Shown one piece after another: positions 22,268-57,391 of a stretch of DNA of 64,000 nucleotides. The notes under the pieces were generated by a model. The model saw only the letters and a program-made list of their open reading frames with translations. It was not told where the DNA came from and did no database searches. Location of the stretch: contig CP136063.1 in NCBI GenBank assembly GCA_032622095.1, positions 83,739,980 to 83,803,979 on the forward strand. The letters are read 5' to 3'. Position 1 is the first letter of the stretch. Every line of letters starts with the position of its first letter. The stretch comes from Siphonodentalium dalli (taxonomy: Eukaryota > Mollusca > Scaphopoda > Gadilida > Siphonodentaliidae). The translations under genes and the position numbers were made by a program.

Positions 22268-22560
22268 TGTCCATAGAAGGGGATAATATATATCTGTATG
22301 TTATGTTAGAAGGAGATAATATATATCTGTATGTTATGTTAGAAGGAGATAATATATATCTGTATGTTATGTTAGAAGGAGATAATACATATCTGTATGT
22401 TATGTTAGAAGGATATAATATATATCTGTATGTTACGTTAGAAGGAGATAATATATATATCTGTATGTTATGTTAGAAGGAGATAATATATATCTGTATG
22501 TTATGTTAGAAGGAGATAATATATATCTGTATGTTATGTTAGAAGGAGATAATATTATAA
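22268..22560. repeat. 33-bp tandem array (left block)
   Basis: About nine units, each ggagataatatatatctgta followed by tgttatgttagaa. It is the same family and orientation as the long array at 25148-26890. The open frame across it (22213-22476) is a repeat artefact. Confidence 0.95.
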
Positions 22561-22564
22561 GTTA

Positions 22565-22694
22565 CACGGCTTGTTGAGGAGGGATACGGTGTGGTATGCC
22601 CCGGTTGAGTCCCGTATCCCCCGAGGCGATAGCCGAGGGGGATACGGGACTCAACCGGGGCATACCACACCGTATCCCCCCTCAACAAGCCGTG
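22565..22694. repeat. 130-bp GC-rich foldback palindrome
   Basis: Arms of ~57 bp (cacggcttgttgagg...cccgtatccccc) are near-perfect complements around the loop CGAGGCGATAGCCGAG. It sits between the 33-bp array and the 88-bp satellite. Part of its arm (gggatacgg-gtggtatg) recurs diverged at 25090-25111, right of the satellite. Confidence 0.95.
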
Positions 22695-22734
22695 CAACGT
22701 ATTTATCCCCGGTCTATATTAACAAGATGTTCCG

Positions 22735-25045
22735 ATTTCAGTTTTACACGGGGCATACGAGATTGTTATGACCCGTGTAAAATCTGTCTTCTCTATATAG
22801 CGACGACAATTTTGGCGGGGTAATATCAGTTTTACACGGGGCATACGAGATTGTTATGACCCGTGTAAAATCTGTCTTCTCTATATAGCGACGACAATTT
22901 TGCGGGATAATATAATTTTTACACGGGGCATACGAGATTGTTATGACCCGTGTAAAATATGTCTTCTCTATATAGCGACGACAATTTTGCGGGATAATAT
23001 CAGTTTTACACGGGGCATACGAGATTGTTATGACCCGTGTAACATCTGTCTTCTCTATATAGCGACGACAATTTTTGCGGGATAATATAATTTTTACACG
23101 CACGGGGCATACGAGATTGTTATGACCCGTGTAAAATATGTCTTCTCTATATAGCGACGACAATTTTTGCGGGATAATATCAGTTTTACAAGGGGGAATA
23201 CGAGATTGTTATGACCCGTGTAAAATCTGTCTTCTCTATATAGCGACGACAATTTTTGCCGGGTAATATCAGTTTTACACGGGGCATACGAGATTGTTAT
23301 GACCCATGTAAAATCTGTCTTCTCTATATAGCGACGACATTTTTTGCGGGATAATATCAGTTTTACACGGGGCATATATATACGAGATTGTTATGACCCG
23401 TGTAAAATCTGTCTTCTCTATATAGCGACCACATTTTTTGCGGGATAATATCAGTTTTACACGGGGCATACGAGATTGTTATGACCCATGTAAAATCTGT
23501 CTTCTCTATATAGCGACGACAATTTTTGCGGGATAATATCAGTTTTACACTGGGCATACGAGATTGTTATGACCCGTGTAAAATCTGTCTTCTCTATATA
23601 GCGACGACATTTTTTGCGGGATAATATAATTTTTACACGGGGCATACGAGATTGTTATGACCCGTGTAAAATATGTCTTCTCTATATAGCGACGACAATT
23701 TTTGCGAGATAATATCAGTTTTACACGGGGCATACGAGATTGTTATGACCCGTGTAAAATCTGTCTTCTCTATATAGCGACGACAATTTTTGCGGGATAA
23801 TATAATTTTTACACGGGGCATACGAGATTGTTATGACCCGTGTAAAATATGTCTTCTCTATATAGCGACGACATTTTTTGCGGGATAATATAATTTTTAC
23901 ACGGGGCATACGAGATTGTTATGACCCGTGTAAAATATGTCTTCTCTATATAGCGACGACAATTTTTGCGGGATAATATCAGTTTTACAAGGGGGAATAC
24001 GAGATTGTTATGACCCGTGTAAAATCTGTCTTCTCTATATATATAGCGACGACAATTTTTGCGGGATAATATCAGTTTTACAAGGGGGAATACGAGATTG
24101 TTATGACCCGTGTAAAATCTGTCTTCTCTATATAGCGACGACAATTTTTGCGGGATAATATCAGTTTTACACGGGGCATACGAGATTGTTATGACCCGTG
24201 TAAAATCTGTCTTCTCTATATAGCGACGACATTTTTTGCGGGATAATATAATTTTTACACGGGGCATACGAGATTGTTATGACCCGTGTAAAATATGTCT
24301 TCTCTATATAGCGACGACATTTTTTGTGGGATAATATCAGTTTTACAAGGGGGAATACGAGATTGTTATGACCCGTGTAAAATATGTCTTCTCTATATAG
24401 CGACGACAATTTTTGCGGGATAATATCAGTTTTACACGGGGCATACGAGATTGTTATGACCCGTGTAAAATCTGTCTTCTCTATATAGCGACGACAATTT
24501 TTGCGGGATAATATAATTTTTACACGGGGCATACGAGATTGTTATGACCCGTGTAAAATATGTCTTCTCTATATAGCGACGACATTTTTTGCGGGATAAT
24601 ATAATTTTTACACGGGGCATACGAGATTGTTATGACCCGTGTAAAATATGTCTTCTCTATATAGCGACGACAATTTTTGCGGGATAATATCAGTTTTACA
24701 CGGGCCATACGAGATTGTTATGACCCGTGTAAAATATGTCTTCTCTATATAGCGACGACAATTTTTGCGGGATAATATCAGTTTTACAAGGGGGAATACG
24801 AGATTGTTATGACCCGTGTAAAATATGTCTTCTCTATATAGCGACGACAATTTTTGCGGGATAATATCAGTTTTACAAGGGGGAATACGAGATTGTTATG
24901 ACCCGTGTAAAATCTGTCTTCTCTATATAGCGACGACAATTTTTGCCGGGTAATATCAGTTTTACACGGGGCATACGAGATTGTTATGACCCGTGTAAAA
25001 TCTGTCTTCTCTATATAGCGACGACAATTTTTGCGGGGTAATACG
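22735..25045. repeat. 88-bp hairpin satellite, 26 copies
   Basis: Each unit holds an inverted repeat TTTTACACGGG...CCCGTGTAAAA with a ~19-nt loop (gcatacgagattgttatga), then gtcttctctatatagcgacgacaatttttgcgggataatat. I counted 26 hairpins in three left-arm forms (CAG-TTTTACACGGG, AAT-TTTTACACGGG, and one with TTTTACAAGGGGGAA). Because 88 is 3n+1, open frames up to ~150 codons arise by frame rotation; they are not genes. Confidence 0.97.
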
Positions 25046-25147
25046 AAATAAGTGTTTCCTGTTTAGTTAACATATATCGAACAAGAACACCGGGATACGG
25101 CGTGGTATGGCCCTAGAAGAACAATGGTGCCTAAGAAGGCTTACAAT
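25046..25147. other. Spacer between satellites
   Basis: About 100 bp that includes a diverged piece of the 22565-22694 palindrome arm (gggatacggcgtggtatggcc). Confidence 0.6.
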
Positions 25148-26890
25148 TATACAGAGGGGATAAATATCTGTATGTTATGTTAGAAGGAGATAATATATAT
25201 CTGTATGTTATGTTAGAAGGAGATAATATATATCTGTATGTTAGAAGGAGATAATATATATATGTATGTTAGAAGGAGATAATATATATATCTGTATGTT
25301 AGAAGGAGAAAATATATATCTGTATGTTAGAAGGAGATAATATATATCTGTATGTTATGTTAGAAGGAGATAATATATATCTGTATGTTAGAAGGAGATA
25401 ATATATATCTGTATGTTAGAAGGAGATAATATATATCTGTATGTTAGAAGGAGATAATATATATCTGTATGTTAGAAGGAGATAATATATATCTGTATGT
25501 TAGAAGGAGATAATATATATCTGTATGTTAGAAGGAGATAATATATATCTGTATGTTATGTTAGAAGGAGATAATATATATCTGTATGTTAGAAGGAGAT
25601 AATATATATGTGTATGTTAGAAGGAGATAATATATATCTGAATGTTAGAAGGAGATAATATATATCTGTATGTTAGAAGGAGAAAATATATATATGTATG
25701 TTAGAAGGAGAAAATATATATATGTATGTTCGAATGAGATAATATATATCTGAATGTTAGAATGAGATAATATATATATGTATGTTAGAAGGAGATAATA
25801 TATATATGTATGTTAGAAGGAGATAATATATATCTGTATGTTAGAAGGAGATAATATATATCTGTATGTTAGAAGGAGATAATATATATCTGTATGTTAG
25901 AAGGAGATAATATATATCTGTATGTTATGTTAGAAGGAGATAATATATATCTGTATGTTAGAAGGAGATAATATATATGTGTATGTTAGAAGGAGATAAT
26001 ATATATCTGTATGTTAGAAGGAGATAATATATATCTGTATGTTAGAAGGATATAATATATATCTGTATGTTAGAAGGAGATAATATATATCTGTATGTTA
26101 GAAGGAGATAATATATATCTGTATGTTAGAAGGAGATAATATATATATGTATGTTAGAAGGAGATAATATATATCTGAATGTTAGAAGGAGATAATATAT
26201 ATTTGTATGTTAGAAGGAGATAATATATATATGTATGTTAGAAGGAGATAATATATATATGTATGTTATGTTAGAAGGAGATAATATATATCTGTATGTT
26301 AGAAGGAGATAATATATATATGTATGTTAGAAGGAGATAATATATATCTGAATGTTAGAAGGAGATAATATATATCTGTATGTTAGAAGGAGAAAATATA
26401 TATCTGTATGTTAGAAGGAGATAATATATATCTGTATGTTAGAAGGAGATAATATATATATGTATGTTAGAAGGAGATAATATATATCTGTATGTTAGAA
26501 GGAGAAAATATATATCTGTATGTTATGTTAGAAGGAGATAATATATATCTGTATGTTATGTTAGAAGGAGATAATATATATCTGTATGTTAGAAGGAGAT
26601 AATATATATATGTATGTTAGAAGGAGATAATATATATCTGAATGTTAGAAGGAGATAATATATATCTGTATGTTAGAAGGAGAAAATATATATATGTATG
26701 TTAGAAGGAGATAATATATATCTGTATGTTAGAAGGAGATAATATATATCTGTATGTTAGAAGGAGATAATATATATCTGTATGTTAGAAGGAGAAAATA
26801 TATATCTGTATGTTATGTTAGAACTTAGAAGGAGATAATATATATCTGTATGTTATGTTAGAAGGAGATAATATATATATGTATGTTATT
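25148..26890. repeat. 28/33-bp AT-rich tandem array (right block)
   Basis: About 60 units of gttagaaggagataatatat plus atctgtat. Most are 28 bp; a minority carry an extra gttat giving the 33-bp form. Variants include atatgtat, ctgaatg and gagaaaatat. Same family as 22268-22560. Confidence 0.97.
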
Positions 26891-37328: not shown

Positions 37329-37790
37329 TATTGTCATGATGTACGGATTCAACTGTTAAAACAAAAACTGTGTTTACAAGTGACTGGACAATTTCACGCC
37401 TTACATGTTACCAAAAAGTATACCATTAAGATATTTAACTTTTACATGTACATAAATTTGAGTTTTAACTGTGAAACATGTAGCTTTGTTCTTCTTATGG
37501 CTTAAAAGGGCATGCCGGTTCATGTTTTAGAATGGTCGAAATTAGTATTACTCATAACTGAATAGTGATGGGTTGGCTTATCAGCTATTCGTTTTTTATT
37601 TACAGCCATTTTTATACAGTATAGTTGCGGACACGTTACGCGTGCGCAGCCTTTTTCCGAATTAAATTCTACGAGGCAGATAACAAGCTTGATCCTCTGC
37701 AAACTGCAAAGTTTCATAAGTATTGTCTATCACTTTATGCATTGAGGATTTACATTTCATCAAAACTATGATCGTAAGATAAGAACTGAG
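37329..37790. other. No gene seen
   Basis: A 65-codon minus-strand frame (37520-37717) has no recognisable feature. Confidence 0.5.
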
Positions 37791-38390
37791 ATGCACCATG
37801 GTTAAATGTTACTATTGTCATGCTGACATCACCAAAAATATTGGACTTTTCTCTCAAATACTTGACATAAATATCGCAAAAATTAACTTTTCAGGGTTGG
37901 ACCATTTTTTCAAGTAAAATGCAACTATCTTTGGTATCAAAGGTGTTTATTGTTTTTGTCTAACTTAAATGTGTCACACTACGGTGTTTATAGACCAAAT
38001 TGCTCAAGATGACTTCCAAAATGGCAACCAAATTTGTAAATAAGTTATTTTTTTACATATATCCCGAACATTATTCTCTGCGTTATCCGAAAAGGAAGCA
38101 AATTTGACTCACTTGGTTATTATACGTGTTAGTTAATTAACTAACAATTTCGTTCTATTCTGTTTGTCCCAGTTCCGTATGGGGCATGCCAAATTCATTT
38201 TAAAGTTGCAGTATGGAATTTTGCGGAGAACCTCTTTTGTGATTCTGGCCGTATTATTGAAAGGATATGGCCTGAACTTTGAGATGAACCATGATATGTG
38301 GCTATTCTGGCCCATTGTGGTAAAAATTGATCAACTGGATACAGACTGGATGCCAAGATGGCAGCCAGTGGGTTACTGTATGCCGTGAAT
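37791..38390 (+). repeat. Left unique arm of outer foldback element
   Basis: This ~600-bp segment is the diverged reverse complement of 56790-57391 (shared gatgcaccatggtta, tgacatcaccaaaaatatt, ttatccgaaaagg, gttagttaattaactaac, ccatgatatgtggctattct). It carries a CAAGATGACTTCCAAAATGG motif near 38008. The outer limit is not sharp and no target duplication was resolved. Confidence 0.8.
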
Positions 38391-38947
38391 ATGTATACGG
38401 GGAGTTATTGTATGGTCATGAATGATGTGAATAGGTATATAAGGATTGACTATATGGTCATGAGTGGGGTGTCCACGATGAGATGTATAGGAATATAAGG
38501 AGTGGCTGTATGGTCATGTGTGAGGTGAATCGGTATACATGGGTAATGTGTATAGGTGAACATGGGATGACTATACGGTCATGATTGAAGTGTATATGCA
38601 TACCTGGAGTAAGCTGGATGGTCATTGTGGGTATATAGGGAGTGCCCTTTTGGTAACGGGTGGGACATATATTTATATATGTTGTGGATGTATTATCATC
38701 AATTGGTGGTGTATAGGGAGTAGATGTATGACCATGAATGGCGTGTATGAGTATACAGTGAGTTCCTGAATTGTCATGTGTGAGATGTATATGCAAGTAT
38801 GGAACTTATGGGTAGTCGTGTGTGCGGATATTGGTATATCCGGAAGGGCTCACCATTGGTGAGGTGTATATGTATACATGGATTGACTCTATGGTCATGG
38901 GTATGGCGAATAGGTATACGTGTAGTGGTTGTATGGTCCATGGTGAG
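38391..38947 (+). repeat. ~40-bp tandem repeats (left arm, block B)
   Basis: Degenerate units gtgaataggtatacatggag plus tgactatatggtcatga, opposite in orientation to block A (34385-35530). The block is cut by the LINE insertion after 38947 and resumes at 55096. The last seven bases, tggtgag, are the LINE target duplication. Confidence 0.88.
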
Positions 38948-40741
38948 ATTTAAAAAAGGCCCAACGTGACTTCCACAAAGACAGTTCTCAATATTTTAAA
39001 GTCGAACTCGCTAAGAAAAGTTAATTTTATAGAAAAACTTTGAGAAAAAATGTCGCTCTTTATAAAAACAATATTGCAAACCGACTTCGACAGGTTCAAA
39101 CTGATGATATTTCTGAATACTGGAAAATCTTAAACTCAAATGTAGAACGTACGCCAACACAAGTACCACTCGAGGAAATGTATGATTATCTCAAGAAAAC
39201 TCGTCTGAAAATAATCTACAAGATTGCGCAGACATTGAATTACCCATGATAGATTTGTATAACGATACATTAGATAAACCCATAACTGAGCATGAAATAA
39301 TTATTGCCGTCCGTGGCCTTAAAGGGAATAAAAGTAGTGGAATTGACAAAATAAAATACGAACATATCAAATCGACTATCGACGATATGTTACCAGTATA
39401 TGTACTTTTATTCAATATTATACTTGACAGTGGTATTATGCCAGAACAGTGGTTAACCGGCATCGTAGTACCTGTCTATAAAAAGAAAGGCGACTTATTA
39501 TGTCCAGAAAATTATCGTCCTATAACTATAATGAGTTGCCTTGGCAAGGTCTTCACCAAAATTATTAACTCTAGATTAACTGCGTACGCGGATGAAATAT
39601 GCTTACTCTACAGTAATCAAGCTGGATTTAGAAAAGGCTTTTCTACATCTGATAACATTGTTGCATTACATTTTTTGTGTTCAATAATGGAGCAATGCGA
39701 AATTAAATTCTTTTGTGCCTTCATTGATTTTAAACAGGCATTTGACACTGTATGGCATACTGGCCTATGGCAAAAATTGTTGACGTCTGGTATCAACGGA
39801 AGATGTTTCAGACTTATTAAAAACATGTACAGCAGTGTCAAATCCCTGGTTAGAATCAACGGCGACACATCAGATACTTACAGAACGTACTCTGGAGTGC
39901 TCCAGGGTGAAAATTTATCATCTTTTTATTTTCGATCTACCTCAATGATTTACAGAGTTTCTTTGAAACTAATAATGTCCCAGGCCTACACCGATTGCAA
40001 ACGATAATTACTGATGAACTTAAAACTTATGTAAAACTTTATTTAATGCTTTATGCTGATGATACTGTAATATTTGCAGAAAGTACAAATGATATGAAAA
40101 AATATTTGAGCATTTTTGACGACTATTGTTCATTTTGGAAATTAAATGTCAATACGTCGAAAACAAAGATTATGGTATTCGGAAAAGGGCGTACCCCAAG
40201 ACGTAAGTTATGCATTAATGGAACACATATTGAATATGTCACTCATTACAAATATCTTGGAATTATTTTTACTAAATTAAACACGTTTTCCAAAGCAAAA
40301 AATGACCTGATTACAAGAGCTACCCGATCTATATATGTATGGTCTTATCCATAAAATACGCCAATTGTCCTTGCCATTCGAATGTCAGTTAGACATGTTC
40401 AATAAAACTGTCAAACCTATCCTACTATATGGGACAGAAACATGGGGTTATGGATGTCTAGAATCCCTAGAAAAATTACAATTAAATGTTTTAAAATTTA
40501 TCCTAAATGTAAAAACAAGTCCAACATCGCTAATGGTATATGGCGAGACAGGAATGTTCCCATTAGATCTGGATGTAAAATGTCGAATGGTATCATACTG
40601 TGCACAATTAGTTAATTGTAATGATAGCAGAATGAGTAGGATGATGTACTCCCTTCTGTTAAAATGGTATAGAAATGGTGAATATAAGCATCCATGGCTA
40701 TCATATATCCATAAAATTATAATTGAATCGGGGCTACCGTC
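38948..40741 (+). pseudogene. LINE reverse transcriptase, 5' part (interrupted)
   Basis: A 5'-truncated non-LTR retrotransposon enters its ORF2 upstream of the polymerase domain. Frames 39040-39249, 39246-40007, 39995-40354 and 40335-40741 together encode it: KPITEHEIIIAVRGLKGNKS, YRPITIMSCLGKVF, CAFIDFKQAFDTVWH, GVLQGENLS, the catalytic LYADDTVIF (TATGCTGATGAT at 40052-40063), VTHYKYLGIIF, and a downstream ILLYGTETWGYG segment. Frameshifts lie near 39200, 39925 and 40337, so it is dead. The ORF is cut at 40741 by the giant palindrome and continues at 54345. Target duplication tggtgag: 38941-38947 and 55096-55102. The clade within the CR1/Jockey-like group is not resolved. Confidence 0.92.
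40736..40741. other. 6-bp target-site duplication, left copy
   Basis: accgtc lies immediately before the first base of the giant palindrome and is repeated at 54339-54344. Confidence 0.93.
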
Positions 40742-43739
40742 AGTAGTATTAAGAGAAGGTATTATCTCTGTAATATATAAGTGAGGGGGACAAGGAAAGT
40801 GTTCAACGTTACATTATCGACTAATTGCATTAGGGTGTGGTCATTTGGAATCCCCACCCCCACGGGATTTCATAAATACTACTTATCGAATGTTAAACGA
40901 TACAATACCGACTAATTTATATAGGTGTAGTCGTCGTCTGATAATCCCCACCCCCACGGGATTTCGTAAATAGTATTTAACGAATGTAAACGTTACAATA
41001 ACGACTAATTTATATAAGTGTATCAAAAATGAGCTGTTTTACAAGGCAGATCTTATAGTCATACTGAATAGTAACTACTTTAAAAGCACATCCAAGCTAC
41101 AATACGACCTATTTTATGTTAGGTAATGATGTATGTTTATTTCAGATGGTATAGTAAAGCAAACTATTTATAGGCAGATGATATAGTCAGGCTAACTAGT
41201 AACTATTTGAAGGATTAGTACGCACGATTGAATACATGTATTTATATGTAGGTTAGTTATGATAGGTTAGTAAAATAATAGTCCTAAATGAGATGAATTA
41301 TTCGCTAGTGAATAACCTCGTGCATGTAAAAAACCACAAGGCTAAAACACATGGAATATTTGTTAGTGTCGGAACTGTTTCTTCGTTATTGTAGATTTGT
41401 AGGTAACACTATTCGATCTCATAAAACTCGATATTACAGAGTCTCGTAGAAAACGAAATGTGGAACCCAACACTTTAGATCCTTTAATGAATATAAATGG
41501 TACATAAATCTTAGTATACAAACAGATATCAAAAAAACATAATCAAATCAATCTTTTTAAAGATATGGACACTCTGGTCTCCCCGTCGAAATATCTTCTG
41601 GCAAAAATGTATCAATATTTAAAGTCAGACTAATTATTTCTAGGTTGGTCTTAAAATACTACTTCTAGGCTATGCTCAAACAAGCTATTTCTAGGTTATT
41701 AAAAAATTTCATAACATATACTGAATAAATCTACAAATATTAATTCGAATATAAAGAACAGAGTTAGATCCCCTGTGAATTGTAACAGTATCCAAATTAA
41801 TCATCATTTAAAGTCAGACTAATTATTTCTAGGTTGGTCTTAAAATACTTCTTCTAGGTTATACTCAGGCAAACTATTTCTAGGTTAGTCAAAAATATCA
41901 GAGTTGTAAACTAAATCTACAAATATTAATTGGAATATAAAGAAAAGAGTTAACTCCCCTGTGAATTGAATAATCTGTTTTATTAAGTTCAATATAGATG
42001 TTAAGCGATTGATATATGTTAATGAATGATACAATGATATATTCGTTAGCGAATAAACCTATGCATGTAAAAACCACAAGTCTAAACACATTGAACTTTT
42101 GTAGACTAATAGGCAACACATTTCAAAAACACCATTCCATAGTGATAGAAATCGAAATGTATAACCATTATCGGTTCCTTTAAACATTATGAATGATGGA
42201 AATATATTCAAATCAATCAACTTATGTTGGAATATATAAAAATATGTGTATCAAGCATGTTAAATTGTGAATAATTAGTTATTTATATCACACCAACGTT
42301 AATTCATAATCTATAGTATTTTAGGAAAGAAAACTGGAACAAATAGTAACTATTTTCGGTTTATATCAAGACAACGTATTTCAATTCCAACACAAATTCA
42401 ATATTTCAGAAAAATAAAAAAAAATCTATCTTTTAATGAAATATGTAAAAGCACGATAAAGCAATTAAAACACAATTTAAGTTACATTTTCGTCAACAAA
42501 ATTGAAGTTATATGTTATAATGCGTCAAAAAAATATGAGAATCCTTAATCAAATATCTCAATTGAAAGCCGAAAAAAAACAAAACAATTTAAATGTTAAC
42601 TTTATCTGTTTCGCTCGCAAGCATCAAAAGTCCCTTTTTATTACCACAATAATTGTAAAAGACAATAAATGTTTTGTCTTTAATAAAAAAATGTAAAAAT
42701 ATTATAATCTTAGGAAAACACTAATGTTTTCGTCAACAAAATTCAAGCACAAACTTTATATGTCAATAAAATAATATGAAAATTTAATAAAACTTTAATC
42801 AATTTAGTGCTAAATTGTTGAAAAAATGTTGACTGTTGACGCAATCAACTGATATTCCAAATGTTTTTACTCTGCCTCAATTTTACCTATGCGAATGTAT
42901 CTGTTTATATAAGGAAAATTCATTCTGTCTTTAATCCCAACAAATGATGTCATTCGAGCCATCTTTCTTTAAGTCGAATAATCTACCAACATATAGCACT
43001 AAACATGATGAGGTCTTCGTCGAGAATTCATGTCCACCTCTGTTTTGCATAGTAAAAGCTACTTACCCATTAAACAACAGATAATCCATCGAAGTATAGT
43101 TCTATCTCTCAATTTTACCTATGCGAATCGTCTGTTTATATAAAAAAAACATTCATTCTATCTTTAGGTCATGATGTCATTATACCATAATCTACGACCA
43201 TTCGCCGAGAATTCATGTCGAGCTCTGTTTATATACAGTAACACATTAATTTACTCAAGCTATCTATACTCCCAAACAAATCAGTCGAGCTATCTTGTTA
43301 AATGTTCTCGTATGCCTATCATAATGTACCCTCCCATTTTATCCGACGACATGGATAATATAATTCATGTCGACATATATCTGTACAAGGCGACTAATTT
43401 ATTCAACTAGGCTACCTAGCTTGGCTCATATTTCAAAGAACGCATTCGTTAACGACCCATCCTTACAAACCCAGTAATATAAATTACACCTGTCAAGTCG
43501 CTTATTTGAAGATCAACTTACCTTACGATAAACATTCCAAACATTCCAATTATAATATATAAGCCAGGTAAATGGCCTATAAAGTCACGGATTTAAATCG
43601 CCAGGTGAGTTTAGTTAAATTATGTTTTCAGATAACTTTAAATTAATTCATATCTTATTCAAGCTATGTTCTGTATAATTTAAAACGATAAATTAGAATC
43701 AAGTTTGTATATTTATCGGAGCAAAACATATTGAGGAAG

Positions 43740-44440
43740 TTTGAAGCAGTTGTCTTAAAGTGACACTAAGATTTATTTTCTTATTTGCACACAGTATACT
43801 TTGTTTAAACCAGATGTCTTAAAATGGCACTAAGATTTATTTTATTATTTTATCCATCTATTTATAAACAAGATGTCTTAAAAGGGCACTAAGATTTCAT
43901 TTTATAATTTCAATACCAAAAGTGTTTGAATATCACAGAACAAAAATTTGTAATAATTTTACCCCAAAATTGTTAATAAATAGGTCTTATTCATATCATA
44001 ATTCTTAAAAGGACGCTAATAATTTAACTTAAATATGGTTGAACATTTATCGATAAAGAGCGTGTATTATCTGCTTGTATGCAACTCTTTCAATCCCTAG
44101 TAATATTCGGATACAGTATACTTTGTTCATCCCATATGTCTTAGAATGGCACTAAGATCTATTTTATTATTTTATCCATCTATTTATAAACAAGATGTCT
44201 TAAAAGGGCACTAAGATTTCATTTTATAATTTCAATACCAAAAGTGTTTCAATATCACAAAACAAAAATTGTAATAATTTTACCTCAGAATTGTTAATAA
44301 ATAGGTCTTCTTCACATCATAATTCTTAAAAGGGCGCTAATAATTTAACTTAAATATGGTTGAAAATTTATCGTTAAAGAGCGTGTATTATCTGTTTGTA
44401 TGCAACTCTTAATTATCAAAAACGGATACTGTTACACTAT
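43740..44440 (+). repeat. ~325-bp duplication inside left arm
   Basis: Two successive copies share gatgtcttaaaa(t/g)ggca, taatttcaataccaaaagtg, aataggtctt, and gagcgtgtattatctg(c/t)t. A shorter box (gtctta-a-n-ggcactaagat) repeats within each. The mirror copy is at ~50850-51550. Confidence 0.85.
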
Positions 44441-44765
44441 TACACACAAATTTTTAGATAGTATATTACAGTATCCAAATTAACATTGTTACAATTCAGA
44501 TTCTACGGAAAGTTATCTTTAAACATGCAAATAAAAACAATAATCATAGTTTTACAATTGTTTTTTTTATGTAAAATTTTATTTGTCTACACGTTGTGGC
44601 TAAGCATATCATAACAGTATATTTACATTTATCTAGCAAATGCGCTCTAATTTCTACAAATTAACATTCCAATTCATAAATTGTTTTTTTTTGGAAAAAA
44701 AAATACTGTAACAGTTTTGTTTACATACCAACTCGTATAGTTTAATAAATAAAGATAACACTTAC

Positions 44766-44866
44766 CTGATTACGGCAAATAATTCTCCCTTAATCATAAT
44801 GGCAACACGATTTGGAAAAACAAATGCTGATGAATCCGTACGCAATTTAGCATCAGATGTAAACAT
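44766..44866 (-). CDS. Exon-like ORF in left arm of palindrome
   Basis: A locally GC-richer island in the arm opens at ATG 44864-44866 (minus strand) and encodes 33 residues plus two bases (MFTSDAKLRTD...GELFAVI). It ends exactly at AG|GTAAGTG, a perfect splice donor. An exact-layout copy lies in the right arm at 50424-50524. No domain is recognised and no downstream exon was found. It may be the first coding exon of the element's own gene or a captured host exon; it may also be chance. Confidence 0.3.
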
Positions 44867-45514
44867 GCTCGGACAGAAACAATTCCCGGTCGTTCGTTTT
44901 TAAACTTACAATTGATGCAGGGTGAAGTGTCAAGCGTTAAGTTTCAACAAGCAGTGAATGGCCATTATATATCTGATTAATTTACCTTTGTATACAGCAT
45001 AACGCCCGTGTTGGCATCTGCACGCATGCTTAAAACTCATTAGTCATTGAAATTTGAAAATTTAGAATAATTATTTATCGCGCATTCATCGTACAGAATT
45101 ATACGATGAAAGCAAATATAAACTGCGTATGTGCACACGACTAATATGTACTTTCGATGCTATGCCTATAAATAGTATGCAATTATCTCGCAGAATCAAT
45201 CAAACAATAATATTAAGCTAATTCTGTTAGTTACACCATTGCATCTGAAATTGCTCGATGTCGTTAGACTATAGGTTAATGTGTGTTTTATATGCATGTT
45301 CCCGTTCATTATCTGCAAATTTTTAAATCGTCACGGAAATCTACCTACTAACATATTTGAACGCACATTATAATTTGGATAGTTAAATCATACATCTTAT
45401 CACTGGAAAAATATGAATATATGCTCTAAATCTGTTGGCAGGGCTATTTCAATATACAACATCATATGTATTCAATGTTTCTAATATATAAATTATACCC
45501 CAAATTATCATACA

Positions 45515-46640
45515 AAAAATATGTTTTCAAGATGGCTTCCAATATGGCTATTCAGAAATGTGAGCTTCAAAATATATCCTGATAAAATGTACACATTTAC
45601 TGTGATCATATATCGTACAACTGGATGTATTAACGTTTATAGCGTAATACCTATGCTATCTCCATTACAAAAGATGGATGCCGAAATGGCCATCGTTTAC
45701 TTCAAGATACAGGGCTTAAAAATGTATTGCATTTTTACAAAGGCTCATATGCATCATTTAGGTTTGTAGTTTGTATAGTATATGGTAAATTATCATACAA
45801 TTTGTCATCACAAAAAAAAAACAATATATATTTTCAAGATGGCGTCCAATATGGCTATTCAGAAATGTCAGCTTCAAAATATATCTTGATAAAATGTACA
45901 CATTTGCTGTGATCATATATCGTACAACTGGATGTATTAACGTTTATAGCGTAATACCTATGCTATCTCCATTACAAAAGATGGCTGCCGAAATGGCCAT
46001 CGTTTACTTCAAGATACAGGGCTTAAAAATGTATTGCATTTTTACAAAGGCTCATATGCATCATTTAGGTTTGTAGTTTGTATAGTATATGCTAAATTAT
46101 CATACAATTTGTCATAAAAAAAAAACAATATATATTTTCAAGATGGCGTCCAATATGGCTATTCAGAAATGTCAGCTTCAAAATATATCTTGATAAAATG
46201 TACACATTTGCTGTGATCATATATCGTACAACTGGATGTATTAGCGTTTATAGCGTAATACCTATGCTATCTCCATTACAAAAGATGGCTGCCGAAATGG
46301 CCATCGTTTACTTCAAGATACAGGGCTTAAAAATGTATTGCATTTTTACAAAGGCTCATATGCATCATTTAGGTTTGTAGTTTGTATAGTATATGCCAAA
46401 TTATCATACAATTTGTCATCACAAAAAAAAACAATATATATTTTCAAGATGGCGTCCAATATGGCTATTCAGAAATGTCAGCTTCAAAATATATCTTGAT
46501 AAAATGTACACATTTGCTGTGATCATATATCGTACAACTGGATGTATTAGCGTTTATAGCGTAATACCTATGCTATCTCCATTACAAAAGATGGCTTCCA
46601 AAATGGCCACCTTTACTCTAAAATACAGAGCTTAAAATTA
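45515..46640 (+). repeat. ~305-bp tandem repeats in left arm, four copies
   Basis: Units start near 45531, 45838, 46142 and 46448 (spacing 304-307 bp). Each has two boxes ~142 bp apart: CAAGATGGCGTCCAATATGG and AAAGATGGCTGCCGAAATGG. Open frames of 60-97 codons across them (MYTFAVIIYRTTG...) are repeated artefacts without domain features. Confidence 0.95.
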
Positions 46641-47644
46641 CATGCATAATTTAGAAAGTTGATTTTGATTAGTCATACTACTTATTTCTTCAAAAGAGTT
46701 AATATTTCCTTATTCTTATCACAGTTTTAAAAACAATCAACAAAAATCTTCATTGTGTATCATATAATGAGTTCTTGGTAGGCTATCTCATTGTACAACA
46801 TATACGTATTTATATTTGTTTGTAATATCCAATGGAGTATTTCGTAAATAAAGTTGTCAAATGCTATAATATAATATAAACTCTCAATATCAAAGTATTA
46901 AACAAACGAAAAAATAGTCACAGAGCCGTCCCATGGGGTAAAATTCCCTCTAATACATATCTCATACACAATATTACTTTGTTTTAAACCGAGTTGTGTG
47001 GAACATCGACATTTTAATATCATTTTAATCAACCGTTCTAGAACAAATTACTTACACAATCTTTTCTTAAAAGCTGTTAAAAAAAATTGTCTACCTAATT
47101 CACAATAATTTTTTTGCTAGGTTCGTAGTATTATCATATGGAGCGTAGGTTCGAAAACGAAATTAGTAAGAATGCTTTTTTTTGGTAGTGGGAATGTGTC
47201 AGGGGTAAATTCTGCTATAATTCACTTAATGCTATGTTTTCAAGATGACGTCCAATATGGCAACTGAGAACTGTGAGCTTCAAAATATATCTGATAAATT
47301 GTATGCCTTAGTTAATATGATCACATAATTATGCGCTTGGCTGTCTTCGCGTTGATAACGTATTAGCAACGCTGACGCCATTATAAAATGGCAAACATTT
47401 ACTTCAAAATATACAGCTTCAGAGAAATGTTCGGTATTTTACAAAATAAGACCGAGTGATATTTTGTCTTTCTTCTCGAAATGTATGAACAAAACAAGAG
47501 ATGATATACATTACAAACAACTGAAATGTAGTCAGTTGACGACCACTATACACAAAAATAAATTTGATTACTGCCAACACAGTGTCAGAATTGAAAAATA
47601 AATAGTAAATGTGTATCATAAACACTATAATATCGCATTGAATA

Positions 47645-47647
47645 TAA
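47645..47647. other. Centre of the giant palindrome
   Basis: The arms meet as cgcattgaata-taa-tattcaatgcg. Only three unpaired bases separate nearly 7 kb of inverted repeat on each side. Confidence 0.95.
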
Positions 47648-48649
47648 TATTCAATGCGATATTATAGTGTTTATGATACACATTTACTATTTATTTTTCA
47701 ATTCTGACACTGTGTTGGCAGTAATCAAATTTATTTTTGTGTATAGTGGTCGTCAACTGACTACATTTCAGTTGTTTGTAATGTATATCATCTCTTGTTT
47801 TGTTCATACATTTCGAGAAGAAAGACAAAATATCACTCGGTCTTATTTTGTAAAATACCGAACATTTCTCTGAAGCTGTATATTTTGAAGTAAATGTTTG
47901 CCATTTTATAATGGCGTCAGCGTTGCTAATACGTTATCAACGCGAAGACAGCCAAGCGCATAATTATGTGATCATATTAACTAAGGCATACAATTTATCA
48001 GATATATTTTGAAGCTCACAGTTCTCAGTTGCCATATTGGACGTCATCTTGAAAACATAGCATTAAGTGAATTATAGCAGAATTTACCCCTGACACATTC
48101 CCACTACCAAAAAAAAGCATTCTTACTAATTTCGTTTTCGAACCTACGCTCCATATGATAATACTACGAACCTAGCAAAAAAATTATTGTGAATTAGGTA
48201 GACAATTTTTTTTAACAGCTTTTAAGAAAAGATTGTGTAAATAATTTGTTCTAGAACGGTTGATTAAAATGATATTAAAATGTCGATGTTCCACACAACT
48301 CGGTTTAAAACAAAGTAATATTGTGTATGAGATATGTATTAGAGGGAATTTTACCCCATGGGACGGCTCTGTGACTATTTTTTCGTTTGTTTAATACTTT
48401 GATATTGAGAGTTTATATTATATTATAGCATTTGACAACTTTATTTACGAAATACTCCATTGGATATTACAAACAAATATAAATACGTATATGTTGTACA
48501 ATGAGATAGCCTACCAAGAACTCATTATATGATACACAATGAAGATTTTTGTTGATTGTTTTTAAAACTGTGATAAGAATAAGGAAATATTAACTCTTTT
48601 GAAGAAATAAGTAGTATGACTAATCAAAATCAACTTTCTAAATTATGCA

Positions 48650-49775
48650 TGTAATTTTAAGCTCTGTATTTTAGAGTAAAGGTGGCCATTTTGGAAGCCA
48701 TCTTTTGTAATGGAGATAGCATAGGTATTACGCTATAAACGCTAATACATCCAGTTGTACGATATATGATCACAGCAAATGTGTACATTTTATCAAGATA
48801 TATTTTGAAGCTGACATTTCTGAATAGCCATATTGGACGCCATCTTGAAAATATATATTGTTTTTTTTTGTGATGACAAATTGTATGATAATTTGGCATA
48901 TACTATACAAACTACAAACCTAAATGATGCATATGAGCCTTTGTAAAAATGCAATACATTTTTAAGCCCTGTATCTTGAAGTAAACGATGGCCATTTCGG
49001 CAGCCATCTTTTGTAATGGAGATAGCATAGGTATTACGCTATAAACGCTAATACATCCAGTTGTACGATATATGATCACAGCAAATGTGTACATTTTATC
49101 AAGATATATTTTGAAGCTGACATTTCTGAATAGCCATATTGGACGCCATCTTGAAAATATATATATTTTTTTTTTATGACAAATTGTATGATAATTTAGC
49201 ATATACTATACAAACTACAAACCTAAATGATGCATATGAGCCTTTGTAAAAATGCAATACATTTTTAAGCCCTGTATCTTGAAGTAAACGATGGCCATTT
49301 CGGCAGCCATCTTTTGTAATGGAGATAGCATATGTATTACGCTATAAACGTTAATACATCCAGTTGTACGATATATGATCACAGCAAATGTGTACATTTT
49401 ATCAAGATATATTTTGAAGCTGACATTTCTGAATAGCCATATTGGACGCCATCTTGAAAATATATATTGTTTTTTTTTGTGATGACAAATTGTATGATAA
49501 TTTAGCATATACTATACAAACTACAAACCTAAATGATGCATATGAGCCTTTGTAAAAATGCAATACATTTTTAAGCCCTGTATCTTGAAGTAAACGATGG
49601 CCATTTCGGCATCCATCTTTTGTAATGGAGATAGCATAGGTATTACGCTATAAACGTTAATACATCCAGTTGTACGATATATGATCACAGTAAATGTGTA
49701 CATTTTATCAGGATATATTTTGAAGCTCACATTTCTGAATAGCCATATTGGAAGCCATCTTGAAAACATATTTTT
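48650..49775 (-). repeat. ~305-bp tandem repeats in right arm, four copies
   Basis: Mirror image of 45515-46640, with only a few differences (for example one Pro/His codon change and A-run length changes). Confidence 0.95.
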
Positions 49776-50423
49776 TGTATGATAATTTGGGGTATAATTT
49801 ATATATTAGAAACATTGAATACATATGATGTTGTATATTGAAATAGCCCTGCCAACAGATTTAGAGCATATATTCATATTTTTCCAGTGATAAGATGTAT
49901 GATTTAACTATCCAAATTATAATGTGCGTTCAAATATGTTAGTAGGTAGATTTCCGTGACGATTTAAAAATTTGCAGATAATGAACGGGAACATGCATAT
50001 AAAACACACATTAACCTATAGTCTAACGACATCGAGCAATTTCAGATGCAATGGTGTAACTAACAGAATTAGCTTAATATTATTGTTTGATTGATTCTGC
50101 GAGATAATTGCATACTATTTATAGGCATAGCATCGAAAGTACATATTAGTCGTGTGCACATACGCAGTTTATATTTGCTTTCATCGTATAATTCTGTACG
50201 ATGAATGCGCGATAAATAATTATTCTAAATTTTCAAATTTCAATGACTAATGAGTTTTAAGCGTGCGTGCAGATGCCAACACGGGCGTTATGCTGTATAC
50301 AAAGGTAAATTAATCAGATATATAATGGCCATTCACTGCTTGTTGAAACTTAACGCTTGACACTTCACCCTGCATCAATTGTAAGTTTAAAAACGAACGA
50401 CCGGGAATTGTTTCTGTCCGAGC

Positions 50424-50524
50424 ATGTTTACATCTGATGCTAAATTGCGTACGGATTCATCAGCATTTGTTTTTCCAAATCGTGTTGCCATTATGATTAA
50501 GGGAGAATTATTTGCCGTAATCAG
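50424..50524 (+). CDS. Exon-like ORF in right arm of palindrome
   Basis: Plus-strand mirror copy of 44766-44866: ATG 50424-50426, 33 codons plus two bases, donor AG|GTAAGTG at 50524/50525. In both arms the frame points outward, towards the element's end. Function unknown. Confidence 0.3.
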
Positions 50525-53500
50525 GTAAGTGTTATCTTTATTTATTAAACTATACGAGTTGGTATGTAAACAAAACTGTTACAGTATTTTTTTTTCCAAA
50601 AAAAAACAATTTATGAATTGGAATGTTAATTTGTAGAAATTAGAGCGCATTTGCTAGATAAATGTAAATATACTGTTATGATATGCTTAGCCACAACGTG
50701 TAGACAAATAAAATTTTACATAAAAAAAACAATTGTAAAACTATGATTATTGTTTTTATTTGCATGTTTAAAGATAACTTTCCGTAGAATCTGAATTGTA
50801 ACAATGTTAATTTGGATACTGTAATATACTATCTAAAAATTTGTGTGTAATAGTGTAACAGTATCCGTTTTTGATAATTAAGAGTTGCATACAAACAGAT
50901 AATACACGCTCTTTAACGATAAATTTTCAACCATATTTAAGTTAAATTATTAGCGCCCTTTTAAGAATTATGATGTGAAGAAGACCTATTTATTAACAAT
51001 TCTGAGGTAAAATTATTACAATTTTTGTTTTGTGATATTGAAACACTTTTGGTATTGAAATTATAAAATGAAATCTTAGTGCCCTTTTAAGACATCTTGT
51101 TTATAAATAGATGGATAAAATAATAAAATAGATCTTAGTGCCATTCTAAGACATATGGGATGAACAAAGTATACTGTATCCGAATATTACTAGGGATTGA
51201 AAGAGTTGCATACAAGCAGATAATACACGCTCTTTATCGATAAATGTTCAACCATATTTAAGTTAAATTATTAGCGTCCTTTTAAGAATTATGATATGAA
51301 TAAGACCTATTTATTAACAATTTTGGGGTAAAATTATTACAAATTTTTGTTCTGTGATATTCAAACACTTTTGGTATTGAAATTATAAAATGAAATCTTA
51401 GTGCCCTTTTAAGACATCTTGTTTATAAATAGATGGATAAAATAATAAAATAAATCTTAGTGCCATTTTAAGACATCTGGTTTAAACAAAGTATACTGTG
51501 TGCAAATAAGAAAATAAATCTTAGTGTCACTTTAAGACAACTGCTTCAAACTTCCTCAATATGTTTTGCTCCGATAAATATACAAACTTGATTCTAATTT
51601 ATCGTTTTAAATTATACAGAACATAGCTTGAATTAGATATGAATTAATTTAAAGTTATCTGAAAACATAATTTAACTAAACTCACCTGGCGATTTAAATC
51701 CGTGACTTTATAGGCCATTTACCTGGCTTATATATTATAATTGGAATGTTTGGAATGTTTATCGTAAGGTAAGTTGATCTTCAAATAAGCGACTTGACAG
51801 GTGTAATTTATATTACTGGGTTTGTAAGGATGGGTCGTTAACGAATGCGTTCTTTGAAATATGAGCCAAGCTAGGTAGCCTAGTTGAATAAATTAGTCGC
51901 CTTGTACAGATATATGTCGACATGAATTATATTATCCATGTCGTCGGATAAAATGGGAGGGTACATTATGATAGGCATACGAGAACATTTAACAAGATAG
52001 CTCGACTGATTTGTTTGGGAGTATAGATAGCTTGAGTAAATTAATGTGTTACTGTATATAAACAGAGCTCGACATGAATTCTCGGCGAATGGTCGTAGAT
52101 TATGGTATAATGACATCATGACCTAAAGATAGAATGAATGTTTTTTTTATATAAACAGACGATTCGCATAGGTAAAATTGAGAGATAGAACTATACTTCG
52201 ATGGATTATCTGTTGTTTAATGGGTAAGTAGCTTTTACTATGCAAAACAGAGGTGGACATGAATTCTCGACGAAGACCTCATCATGTTTAGTGCTATATG
52301 TTGGTAGATTATTCGACTTAAAGAAAGATGTGCTTGAATTTTGTTGACGAAAACATTAGTGTTTTCCTAAGATTATAATATTTTTACATTTTTTTATTAA
52401 AGACAAAACATTTATTGTCTTTTACAATTATTGTGGTAATAAAAAGGGACTTTTGATGCTTGCGAGCGAAACAGATAAAGTTAACATTTAAATTGTTTTG
52501 TTTTTTTTCGGCTTTCAATTGAGATATTTGATTAAGGATTCTCATATTTTTTTGACGCATTATAACATATAACTTCAATTTTGTTGACGAAAATGTAACT
52601 TAAATTGTGTTTTAATTGCTTTATCGTGCTTTTACATATTTCATTAAAAGATAGATTTTTTTTTATTTTTCTGAAATATTGAATTTGTGTTGGAATTGAA
52701 ATACGTTGTCTTGATATAAACCGAAAATAGTTACTATTTGTTCCAGTTTTCTTTCCTAAAATACTATAGATTATGAATTAACGTTGGTGTGATATAAATA
52801 ACTAATTATTCACAATTTAACATGCTTGATACACATATTTTTATATATTCCAACATAAGTTGATTGATTTGAATATATTTCCATCATTCATAATGTTTAA
52901 AGGAACCGATAATGGTTATACATTTCGATTTCTATCACTATGGAATGGTGTTTTTGAAATGTGTTGCCTATTAGTCTACAAAAGTTCAATGTGTTTAGAC
53001 TTGTGGTTTTTACATGCATAGGTTTATTCGCTAACGAATATATCATTGTATCATTCATTAACATATATCAATCGCTTAACATCTATATTGAACTTAATAA
53101 AACAGATTATTCAATTCACAGGGGAGTTAACTCTTTTCTTTATATTCCAATTAATATTTGTAGATTTAGTTTACAACTCTGATATTTTTGACTAACCTAG
53201 AAATAGTTTGCCTGAGTATAACCTAGAAGAAGTATTTTAAGACCAACCTAGAAATAATTAGTCTGACTTTAAATAATGATTAATTTGGATACTGTTACAA
53301 TTCACAGGGGATCTAACTCTGTTCTTTATATTCGAATTAATATTTGTAGATTTATTCAGTATATGTTATGAAATTTTTTAATAACCTAGAAATAGCTTGT
53401 TTGAGCATAGCCTAGAAGTAGTATTTTAAGACCAACCTAGAAATAATTAGTCTGACTTTAAATATTGATACATTTTTGCCAGAAGATATTTCGACGGGGA

Positions 53501-54338
53501 GACCAGAGTGTCCATATCTTTAAAAAGATTGATTTGATTATGTTTTTTTGATATCTGTTTGTATACTAAGATTTATGTACCATTTATATTCATTAAAGGA
53601 TCTAAAGTGTTGGGTTCCACATTTCGTTTTCTACGAGACTCTGTAATATCGAGTTTTATGAGATCGAATAGTGTTACCTACAAATCTACAATAACGAAGA
53701 AACAGTTCCGACACTAACAAATATTCCATGTGTTTTAGCCTTGTGGTTTTTTACATGCACAAGGTTATTCACTAGCGAATAATTCATCTCATTTAGGACT
53801 ATTATTTTACTAACCTATCATAACTAACCTACATATAAATACATGTATTCAATCGTGCGTACTAATCCTTCAAATAGTTACTAGTTAGCCTGACTATATC
53901 ATCTGCCTATAAATAGTTTGCTTTACTATACCATCTGAAATAAACATACATCATTACCTAACATAAAATAGGTCGTATTGTAGCTTGGATGTGCTTTTAA
54001 AGTAGTTACTATTCAGTATGACTATAAGATCTGCCTTGTAAAACAGCTCATTTTTGATACACTTATATAAATTAGTCGTTATTGTAACGTTTACATTCGT
54101 TAAATACTATTTACGAAATCCCGTGGGGGTGGGGATTATCAGACGACGACTACACCTATATAAATTAGTCGGTATTGTATCGTTTAACATTCGATAAGTA
54201 GTATTTATGAAATCCCGTGGGGGTGGGGATTCCAAATGACCACACCCTAATGCAATTAGTCGATAATGTAACGTTGAACACTTTCCTTGTCCCCCTCACT
54301 TATATATTACAGAGATAATACCTTCTCTTAATACTACT

Positions 54339-54344
54339 ACCGTC
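54339..54344. other. 6-bp target-site duplication, right copy
   Basis: accgtc follows the last base of the giant palindrome and matches 40736-40741. Confidence 0.93.
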
Positions 54345-55095
54345 TCTATGGTGGGACCAGGATAATATTACCATTGATGTTATAAATATGAATAATATTG
54401 TCCAACAAACAACGAAGGACCAATACGTACTGCAATGGAAAATTAATATGGAACAATCAAGTAAATGTACCACATACAAAAAATTGAAAACAATATTTGG
54501 CCTTGAAGACTATCTGAAAATTTTGAATCGCAAGGATGCAATTATCCTTACTAGATTTCGAATGTCCAATCACAGACTTCCCATTGAAACTGGATCATGG
54601 AATGATACCAATCGGAAAGATAGAGTATGTACGAGATGTAATACAGGGTTACTTTGAGATGAATATCATTGTATTTTACAATGCTCTTCGCTTGATTATC
54701 TGAGAAAAAAATATATTCCCAAATTCTTTCGAAATTATCCGAATTTAGTTAATTTTACTAAATTGTTTAACTCCAAAAATAAGAATATATTGATTAAACT
54801 CTCCACATTTATACAAAACGCAAGAGTTAATTACGAATAATGCATGATATCTGCACTCAGTCACGATATCTCCAACAGTTTCGAGGAGATAGTGCGATTT
54901 AGTGATGCATGTCATCAAACAACATTGTGATGCCCTATAATATAATATAAATATTTAATAGCCCCCCCCCCCCTCACACTGAAAAACGCTTTTCCACTGT
55001 TGCACACCATGTATTGTATTGTATAATTATGTATTATCTTCTCATAATATCATGTAACATGATTTACTTGAGAAATAAACATTTGAACTTGAACT
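54345..55095 (+). pseudogene. LINE ORF2 C-terminus and 3' end (interrupted)
   Basis: This continues the ORF cut at 40741. Across the excised insertion the reading becomes CTA CCG TCT CTA TGG TGG (Leu-Pro-Ser-Leu-Trp-Trp) and continues into TIDVINMNNIVQQTTKD. The C-terminal Cys/His knuckle is HRLPIETGSW..RVCTRCNTG, then an in-frame TGA (54656-54658), then DEYHCILQCSSL. The ORF ends near 54840. The 3' untranslated region has a C-run (54963-54975), AATAAA (55074-55079) and a short TTGAAC repeat tail. The right target duplication tggtgag is at 55096-55102. Dead copy. Confidence 0.92.
55074..55079 (+). terminator. LINE polyadenylation signal
   Basis: AATAAA at the 3' end of the palindrome-interrupted LINE, followed by the TTGAACTTGAAC tail. 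Confidence 0.6.
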
Positions 55096-55489: not shown

Positions 55490-56790
55490 ACGTGGAAATC
55501 GATAGCCACCCATTATCACACAGTCATTCCATATATACATAAACACCACTTACATAACAATATAGTGACCCACTGTATACACGTACACCTGACCCATGAT
55601 CACGGATGACCACACAGCCATGAGTCACAATGCAGACACACCGGGTATACCCCTAAACACGACCCATAACCTGATAACCATATAGTCACCCCATCCATGG
55701 CCATATAGCCACTCGCTATATACACACACCCCTCGCCCATGACCATATAGCAACACGTGTGTATACCCGTATAACCTACACATGACAATACCGCCACGAG
55801 TCACCAAGCATGAACACCAGGTATACGCATACACCTGATACATGACCATTTAGTCACTCCCTGTATAGATATTCATTACATTTATGATCATACAGTCACT
55901 CCTTGTATACCTACATGTACGAATCTCACCATTAACCATACAGTCACTACATGTATACCTATTCGACACACATAGTCATATAATCACTCGATATATACAC
56001 ATGCAGCCCGCCCTAGACCTTGGAGTCACTCCAGATATACATATAATACATATACACCTCACCAATGGCCATTCAGCCCTTCCAGATATTAAAAAATCCC
56101 GCACACACGATCACTCATATCTTCCATACTTGCATATACACCTCACACATGACAATTCAGCAACCTACTGTATAACCATACACGCCATCCATGTCATACA
56201 ACTAATCCATATACACCCACCTATGATAATACATCCAGGATATATATAAATATACATCCCACCCGTTACCACAAGGTCACTCCCGATATACCCACACGCT
56301 CGATAATGTCCACCAAGATTACTCCAGGTATGCATATACACTTCAATCATGACCGTACAGTCATTCCATGTATACCTATACGCATTACCCGTAACCATAA
56401 AATCACTCCCTACTTATCCACACACCCAATCCATGATCATACACACAACACAATCATGTACATCCCGCCAATGACCTTATAGTCACCCCATATATACACA
56501 ATCAACACATAGATGACCATGTAGCTATATCCACACACTACATCAATGCCCAAAGAGGCACATCGGGTGCTCCCGTACCGGATACACACAACAATAAACC
56601 ACACAGTCACTCCATGCATACCGATTCACCCCACACCTGACCATGACCTCTCCATGTATACCTATACATCTTACCATGGACAATACATTCATAACTATAT
56701 AGTCACTCCTTGTATACCTATTCAGATCATTCATGACATACAATAACTTCCTGTATACCTATTCAACTCACACATGATCATAGATTAACT
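55490..56790 (-). repeat. ~40-bp tandem repeats, right arm of outer foldback
   Basis: Inverted orientation relative to 55096-55400 (catgaccatatagtcactcc, atgtatacctattc). Longer than the left arm, so unit number differs between arms. Open frames here (for example 55884-56249) are repeat artefacts. Confidence 0.87.
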
Positions 56791-57391
56791 CCCTGGCTAC
56801 CATCTTGGCATCCACCCTGTATCCAGTTCATATATTTTTTTTATCATAATGGGCCAGAATAGCCACATATCATGGTTCATCTCAGTTCCGTCTCAAAGTT
56901 ATGCCCATTTCCTTTCAATAATATGGCCAGAATCACAAATGACGTTCTCGGCAAAATTCCACTTAAAAATGAATTTGTCATGCCCCATATGGAACTGGGA
57001 CAACCCGAATAGAACATGTAGTTATCAGTTAATTAACTAACACGTACAATAACCAAGTGAGTAAGAATTTGCTACCTTTTCGGATAACGCAGAGAATAAT
57101 GTTCGGGATATATGTAAAAAAAATAACTTTTTACAAATTTGGTTGCCATTTTGGAAGCCATCTTGAGCAATTTGGTATATAAACACCGTAGCCGTAGTGT
57201 GACACATTTAAGATAGACCAAAACAATAAACACCTTTCAATCCAAAGATAGTAACGTTTTACTTGAAAAAATGGTTCAAACCTGAAAATTGAATTTTTTA
57301 CGATATTTATGTCAAGTTGTTGAGAGAAAAGTCTAATATTTTTGGTGATGTCAGTGGTGACAATAGTAACAATTAACCATGGTGCATCAGA
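56790..57391 (-). repeat. Right unique arm of outer foldback element
   Basis: Diverged inverted copy of 37791-38390 (ccatcttggcatccaccctg, agttaattaactaacacgta, ccttttcggataacgcagag, taaccatggtgcatc). Confidence 0.8.

Follow-up and report, generated by a model that had tools for sequence, protein, structure and literature searches.

A 13.6-kb palindrome in a scaphopod genome is probably a non-autonomous Polinton satellite that arose by fold-back replication

Results

The genome of the scaphopod mollusk Siphonodentalium dalli carries a 13.6-kb palindrome without recognizable genes that is, in all likelihood, a satellite of Polinton (Maverick) transposons: a non-autonomous member of a family in the same genome, whose palindromic form would have arisen by snap-back during protein-primed replication. 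The palindrome spans positions 40742 to 54338 of the 64,000-nucleotide stretch of contig CP136063.1 that we analyzed (the window, C3:83739980-83803979), and genome-wide searches were made in the host assembly (2.23 Gb in 9 contigs). It is made up of two inverted arms of 6,904 and 6,692 bp with the ends AGTAGT...ACTACT, which confirms an earlier reading made from the window alone (the sequence-only reading) that had described a near-perfect palindrome with arms of about 6.9 and 6.7 kb. The left arm (40742 to 47645, plus strand) starts with AGTAGTATTAAG and the right arm (47647 to 54338, minus strand) terminates in CTTAATACTACT. Between them stands one A (47646), where a spacer of 3 bp had been given previously, and pairing is perfect over the 594 bp next to this A in both directions. 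Aligned over their whole length, the arms show 8 substitutions and two 1-bp indels; in addition, a segment of 210 bp (42750 to 42959, plus strand) is present in the left arm alone. Since part of this segment resembles, by eye, the adjoining arm sequence, we read it as a loss from the right arm.

The element has inserted into a long interspersed nuclear element (LINE). As had been claimed, ACCGTC stands on both sides as a 6-bp target-site duplication (40736 to 40741 and 54339 to 54344). The upstream part of the LINE (39186 to 40741, plus strand) contains a reverse transcriptase domain and must already be degenerate, because that domain is spread over several frames; the downstream part occupies 54345 to 54657 on the same strand. 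With the element and one copy of ACCGTC taken out, the flanks join into a single LINE reading frame that is open across the join to 54657. Long palindromes are a familiar artifact class of long-read libraries, so a fold-back chimera produced by the library or the assembly has to be considered, but we regard this as extremely unlikely: the two flanks differ, a target duplication is present, the LINE frame is restored, the arms carry private differences, and the same structure is found at many places. The sequence-only reading had already judged an artifact unlikely from the two LINE halves.

The coding content of the arms is meager. The longest open reading frame (ORF) of the left arm has 95 amino acids, the same as the average over 200 dinucleotide shuffles (95). 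ORFs of at least 60 amino acids are commoner than in the shuffles (17, against 5 to 14 in 90% of shuffles), perhaps because a 304-bp tandem array found by repeat search (3.7 copies; 45519 to 46637 on the plus strand in the left arm, with its right-arm counterpart at 48655 to 49771 on the minus strand) repeats the same frames. A Pfam search of ten left-arm ORFs of at least 60 amino acids gave no match at the curated cut-off (best E value of 0.012), in agreement with the recorded absence of a recognizable enzyme. By these Pfam searches and the ORF survey of the left arm, in which no ORF exceeds 95 amino acids, the palindrome in the window has no gene for a protein-primed PolB, a retroviral-type integrase, a packaging ATPase, or a capsid protein; because these genes were looked for and not found, it is not an autonomous Polinton. 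The G+C content of the palindrome is 29.8%, against 36.8% in the remainder of the window. Motifs resembling AAGATGGCGTCCAATATGGC lie inside the units of the 304-bp array (45519 to 46637), and comparable short motifs are also present in the sequence flanking the element.

Other copies, which the sequence-only reading had proposed to seek by their terminal sequence, are plentiful. The terminal 18-mer occurs exactly at 54 places in the genome (reversed control, 0), forming 26 convergent pairs with a spacing of 9.8 to 17.3 kb plus 2 unpaired ends; when the end 30-mer is used with as many as 3 mismatches allowed, the numbers rise to 58 places and 28 pairs. In 28 of these 28 pairs, the variable base and the private variants of the 30-mer match between both ends. 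By probe matches and copies read, the 26 end pairs comprise 12 gene-less palindromes, 10 copies with PolB, 2 hybrids, and 2 unclassified pairs (C4:226841918 and C9:157600542); these two and the two unpaired ends stand outside the build counts, and the pairs added by the 30-mer (C3:16759471 and C9:155263766) were left out of the build classification. Ten copies were taken as separate halves and further copies by their ends only. Seven palindromes were read in both halves (the window copy, C1:247734038, C2:160289273, C3:80166303, C4:264785783, C5:170507781, and C5:243148413), whereas the others were assigned from both ends only (C3:239266429), from the loop and the surrounding 1.5 kb (C4:233988453 and C7:188111105), or from an arm probe at both ends (C3:217666976 and C8:105459520). 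All copy numbers are lower bounds, as the best 40 of 156 candidates were scored in the initial genome search, the best 40 of 61 with the PolB probe, and the best 40 of 311 with the arm-only probe. The last of these gave 18 convergent pairs and 4 singles; together with nine further central loops, the 18 pairs bring the palindromes with some evidence to at least 27.

All ten PolB pairs measure 14.36 to 14.59 kb, and 8 of the 12 palindromes measure 13.6 to 14.6 kb. The four outside this range are C1:247734038 (a one-sided loss), C2:160289273 (a shortened center), C3:80166303 (an insertion), and C8:105459520 (12.6 kb; assigned by arm probe). The similar total length of palindromes and helpers would fit a packaging limit, although it does not prove one. 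In a separate search of viral contigs, the terminal 18-mer had 10 matches in which similarity ended within 18 to 26 bases, and we judged them to be chance; the inner motif of the palindrome had 0 matches in that search.

The gene-bearing copies identify the family. The two that we read (C3:25822763 and C7:25318922, with terminal repeats of 0.62 and 0.84 kb) both encode PolB (PF03175; E values of 2.9e-51 and 5.8e-54, respectively), an rve integrase (PF00665; E value of 6e-17 in both), and an ATPase resembling Adeno_IVa2 that is just above the cut-off (E values of 1.1e-4 and 3.5e-5); their other ORFs, of 166 to 435 amino acids, were assigned no name. Thus, the profile search that had been suggested for autonomous copies did find PolB, a retroviral-type integrase, and a packaging-type ATPase. 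The terminal ~760 bp of the window copy (40742 to 41502, plus strand) is common to both ends of the gene-bearing Polintons at 84 to 87% identity with gaps, and the terminal 600 bp of the palindromes C5:243148413 and C2:160289273 is 99.2 to 99.7% identical to the ends of the PolB-bearing C3:25822763. Among the best 40 of 61 candidates, the PolB probe matches fall into at least three identity groups (97 to 100%, 89 to 95%, and ~86%), so that several related Polinton subfamilies seem to be present in this genome.

The two hybrids (C8:85618370 and C3:253011252) join both kinds of element. At one end they carry arm sequence up to approximately position 4610, the outer part of the arm that corresponds to 40742 to 45351 (plus strand) in the window, in place of the PolB gene; in both, similarity to the PolB copies restarts 81 bp beyond the PolB stop, at the same join. 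Both retain rve and the ATPase in open frames, and their PolB may be supplied from elsewhere. Over the terminal 600 bp, C3:253011252 is of the palindrome type on both sides and C8:85618370 has one end of each type. These terminal likenesses point to an exchange of terminal sequence between palindromes and helper Polintons.

The integration signature is common to every build read. A 6-bp duplication was found in 15 of the 15 copies with both ends read (14 copies and an inverted PolB-PolB dimer described below); in the 14 copies, duplication lengths from 3 to 12 were tested and 6 was the sole match. This answers the question, raised by the sequence-only reading, of the duplication length in other copies. 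CG stands at the exact center of the duplication in 8 of the 14 copies, the window copy among them, against a background of 3.0% (P = 1.7e-9, a descriptive value, since it was these copies that drew attention to the pattern), including 5 of 8 palindromes and 2 of 2 hybrids. Two more of the 14 have a central TG or CA, the PolB-PolB dimer has TG, and of four copies known from a single end, two have CG and two have TG. To judge by these sites, the pattern suits a single integrase for all builds, though weakly for the PolB copies alone; a central CpG is a possible target preference of the integrase and might reflect methylated CpG. In vertebrate Mavericks, (AGT)2//(ACT)2 ends with a perfect 6-bp duplication are the commonest signature (PMC8097293), and rve integrases are described as typically producing 6-bp duplications (PMC12220804).

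The sequence-only reading had wavered between an extreme non-autonomous Polinton derivative and an undescribed giant foldback family. The first stands, because the palindrome has its ends and duplication length in common with copies that bear PolB and integrase; the second does not. Long inverted repeats with little middle are indeed typical of foldback elements, and an element of that kind from a different superfamily (MULE, hAT, or P/Galileo type) would be moved by another transposase. MULE, hAT, and P-type foldback transposases make target duplications of 7 to 10 bp, however, whereas here the duplication is 6 bp in all 15 copies; moreover, the ends carry the Maverick motif, and the terminal 600 bp of two palindromes is up to 99.7% like a copy with PolB and integrase. 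We therefore give this explanation almost no credence.

At the center of sister copies, the arms extend 29 bp further inward on each side than in the window copy and enclose a 12-nucleotide loop, TTATGTAAAACG, flanked by GCCGACC and GGTCGGC. The 26-mer around the loop occurs exactly at 14 places in the genome (control, 0). At 10 of these places, the sequences to the left and right of the loop align at 98.3 to 100% over the 1.5 kb read; two of the remaining places have a one-sided difference of ~123 bp in common, and two have one-sided losses. The loop is gone from the window copy and from C1:247734038, in both at the self-complementary GAATATTC.

The two arms of one palindrome are much more alike than the arms of different palindromes. 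Over the outer 1,750 bp, within-copy identity is at least 99.89% in 7 of 8 palindromes, while left arms and hybrid ends are 91.8 to 99.8% identical between copies; over 2,700 bp compared in six copies, the values are 99.85 to 100% within and 91.3 to 99.3% between. In a tree, both arms of one copy cluster together in 7 of 8 palindromes. The arms being alike within copies and different between them, we conclude that they are made alike around each mobilization. Were the palindrome the product of one event, propagated afterward as an ordinary duplex with no hairpin stage, its arm likeness would be incidental. The one loop sequence common to 14 places is compatible with a single founding event, but such a history predicts that arms differ as much within a copy as between copies, which is contradicted in 7 of 8 palindromes, and we consider it very improbable.

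Alternatively, Polintons might have mobilized the palindrome while chromosomal gene conversion kept the arms alike after insertion, as in Y-chromosome palindromes. Very long perfect arms generally invite gene conversion, and the end repeats of the PolB copies, with no clear per-copy resetting over 600 bp, could be taken the same way. One-sided changes nonetheless persist: the 210-bp arm difference in the window copy, the large one-sided loss in C1:247734038 (where the remaining outer arm parts have 0 substitutions), the ~123-bp central difference in two copies, and an insertion of ~3.8 kb in one arm of C3:80166303, whose outer arms differ by 3% while the adjoining inner part is 99.8% alike. 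Conversion after insertion is therefore a poor explanation of the arm likeness, and we think it improbable.

A second inverted dimer, of independent origin, bears on the order of events. Among the best 40 of 61 PolB probe candidates, two matches face each other at C4:31355916 and C4:31359941. They belong to an element of 10,495 bp (C4:31352677-31363171) with the ends AGTAGT...ACTACT and a 6-bp TTTGAT duplication on both sides. The Polinton that contributed its PolB end is a related one (95% in the probe). PolB on the plus strand runs nearly to the end of the gene, and the element turns there, inside PolB, with an 11-nucleotide loop and a 31-bp stem; the two ends of the element are identical across 142 aligned bases except for one 1-base gap. 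Since this dimer has its own turn and its own 6-bp duplication, inverted dimers form before integration, and we regard it as the strongest evidence for fold-back ahead of integration. By eye, it has inserted ~10 bases past a GTAAGT that resembles the splice donor of a host exon.

The surroundings of the palindrome in the window contain several other features. An inverted repeat pair of 83 to 84% identity (37790 to 38875 and 56046 to 57388) lies at some distance around the LINE and the palindrome. Large minisatellite arrays occupy 22274 to 26889, with an 88-bp unit repeated 26 times and a 28-bp unit repeated 57 times; the 28-bp array has a strong GC skew. At 8871 to 9335 on the minus strand, a fragment has a weak DUF3504 match (E value of 4.2e-5, below the curated cut-off), which we take to be Crypton-like.

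Discussion

We propose that these palindromes are inverted dimers of one end of a Polinton-type linear genome. Replication would start by protein priming at the AGT repeats, which we infer from the PolB gene together with the end repeats. During strand-displacement synthesis, the displaced strand could fold back on itself with a short loop where it turns; if synthesis then continued back to the terminus, the product would be an inverted dimer carrying an origin of replication at each of its ends. PolB supplied in trans could then copy the palindromic genome. Because a single strand of the palindrome would form one long hairpin, copying or repair inside that hairpin could equalize the arms, and the Polinton integrase, likewise supplied in trans, would insert the duplex with a 6-bp duplication.

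A number of observations weigh against this interpretation or narrow it. The analysis of the genome sequence revealed neither an extrachromosomal form nor a terminal protein or a hairpin intermediate. Nor was a half-length precursor found among the genome copies, and the inner 2.3 kb of the arm is missing from both hybrids; for these two reasons, the founding event is not reconstructed. Eight of the 14 loops lie in copies that end in neither the 18-mer nor the 30-mer (up to 3 mismatches). Over the outermost 1.75 kb, C3:80166303 has just 96.9% identity between its arms, and its left arm matches that of C5:243148413 at 99.8%, the highest value between copies and close to the level found within copies; exchange between copies does occur. 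Where PolB is present, 600-bp ends from different copies are about as similar as the two ends of one copy, so that resetting copy by copy is seen for the palindromes and the end variants only, and the two ends of the hybrid C8:85618370 are just 94.3% alike over 600 bp. A central CG is present in just 1 of 4 PolB copies. No capsid gene was recognized in the gene-bearing copies, where PDB and PHROGs searches of the ORFs named none. Finally, the PolB-PolB dimer, known from four short stretches, is asymmetric at its center, with ~1.3 kb absent from the return side.

We also offer, tentatively and as a rather unlikely extension, the idea that the palindromes are self-sustaining satellites with a hairpin genome. 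A snap-back half genome of ~7 kb, with an open protein-primed end and an end closed by the 12-nucleotide loop, would cycle with the inverted dimer; packaging in Polinton particles would hold the dimer near the length of its helper, at whose cost it would spread like a defective interfering genome. If this were true, a single hairpin transcript of both arms could also contribute to silencing of the helper by small RNAs, by way of the ends that satellite and helper have in common. According to PMC8097293, Maverick particles have so far not been observed.

The wider interest of fold-back satellites lies in what they would reveal about Polinton biology. As a group, Polintons are considered to be near the ancestral forms of many DNA viruses, and to our knowledge the replication mode of Mavericks has so far been deduced from gene content. 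We see in the inverted dimers with target duplications, in the arms equalized around mobilization, and in the short loops at the turn the footprint of a linear extrachromosomal cycle that is prone to fold-back, and this footprint makes such a cycle directly testable. The divergence between arms could serve, in the manner of long terminal repeats, as a clock for dating insertions, and the palindromes would add a satellite tier to the Polintons. A partial literature search (titles and abstract openings) found no palindromic Polinton family, which does not establish priority.

Among the closest known systems are the Polintons (Mavericks): the palindrome shares the (AGT)2//(ACT)2 termini, the 6-bp duplication, and the terminal 600 to 760 bp with the copies that bear PolB and integrase. 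Terminal repeats of intact vertebrate Mavericks measure 46 to 1,447 bp (PMC8097293). The window palindrome differs in having neither recognizable genes nor a unique middle, and its arms of 6.7 to 6.9 kb exceed that range. Drosophila FB, Galileo, and the Mutator/foldback element Tm1 are likewise gene-poor and dominated by long inverted repeats, but their transposases and duplication lengths are other ones. The rDNA palindrome of Tetrahymena also has a short loop at its center and arises by fold-back synthesis at short inverted repeats; it is, however, no transposable element and forms after programmed chromosome breakage. The hairpin plasmid and inverted dimer of yeast pGKL1 and the symmetric defective genomes of adenovirus resemble the structure that we propose, in that they are defective inverted dimers, each made from one end of a linear genome that replicates by protein priming, and are replicated in trans. 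Those derivatives are episomal or were derived in the laboratory, whereas the palindromes of S. dalli are chromosomal insertions with target duplications, forming a family of at least 27 members with some evidence.

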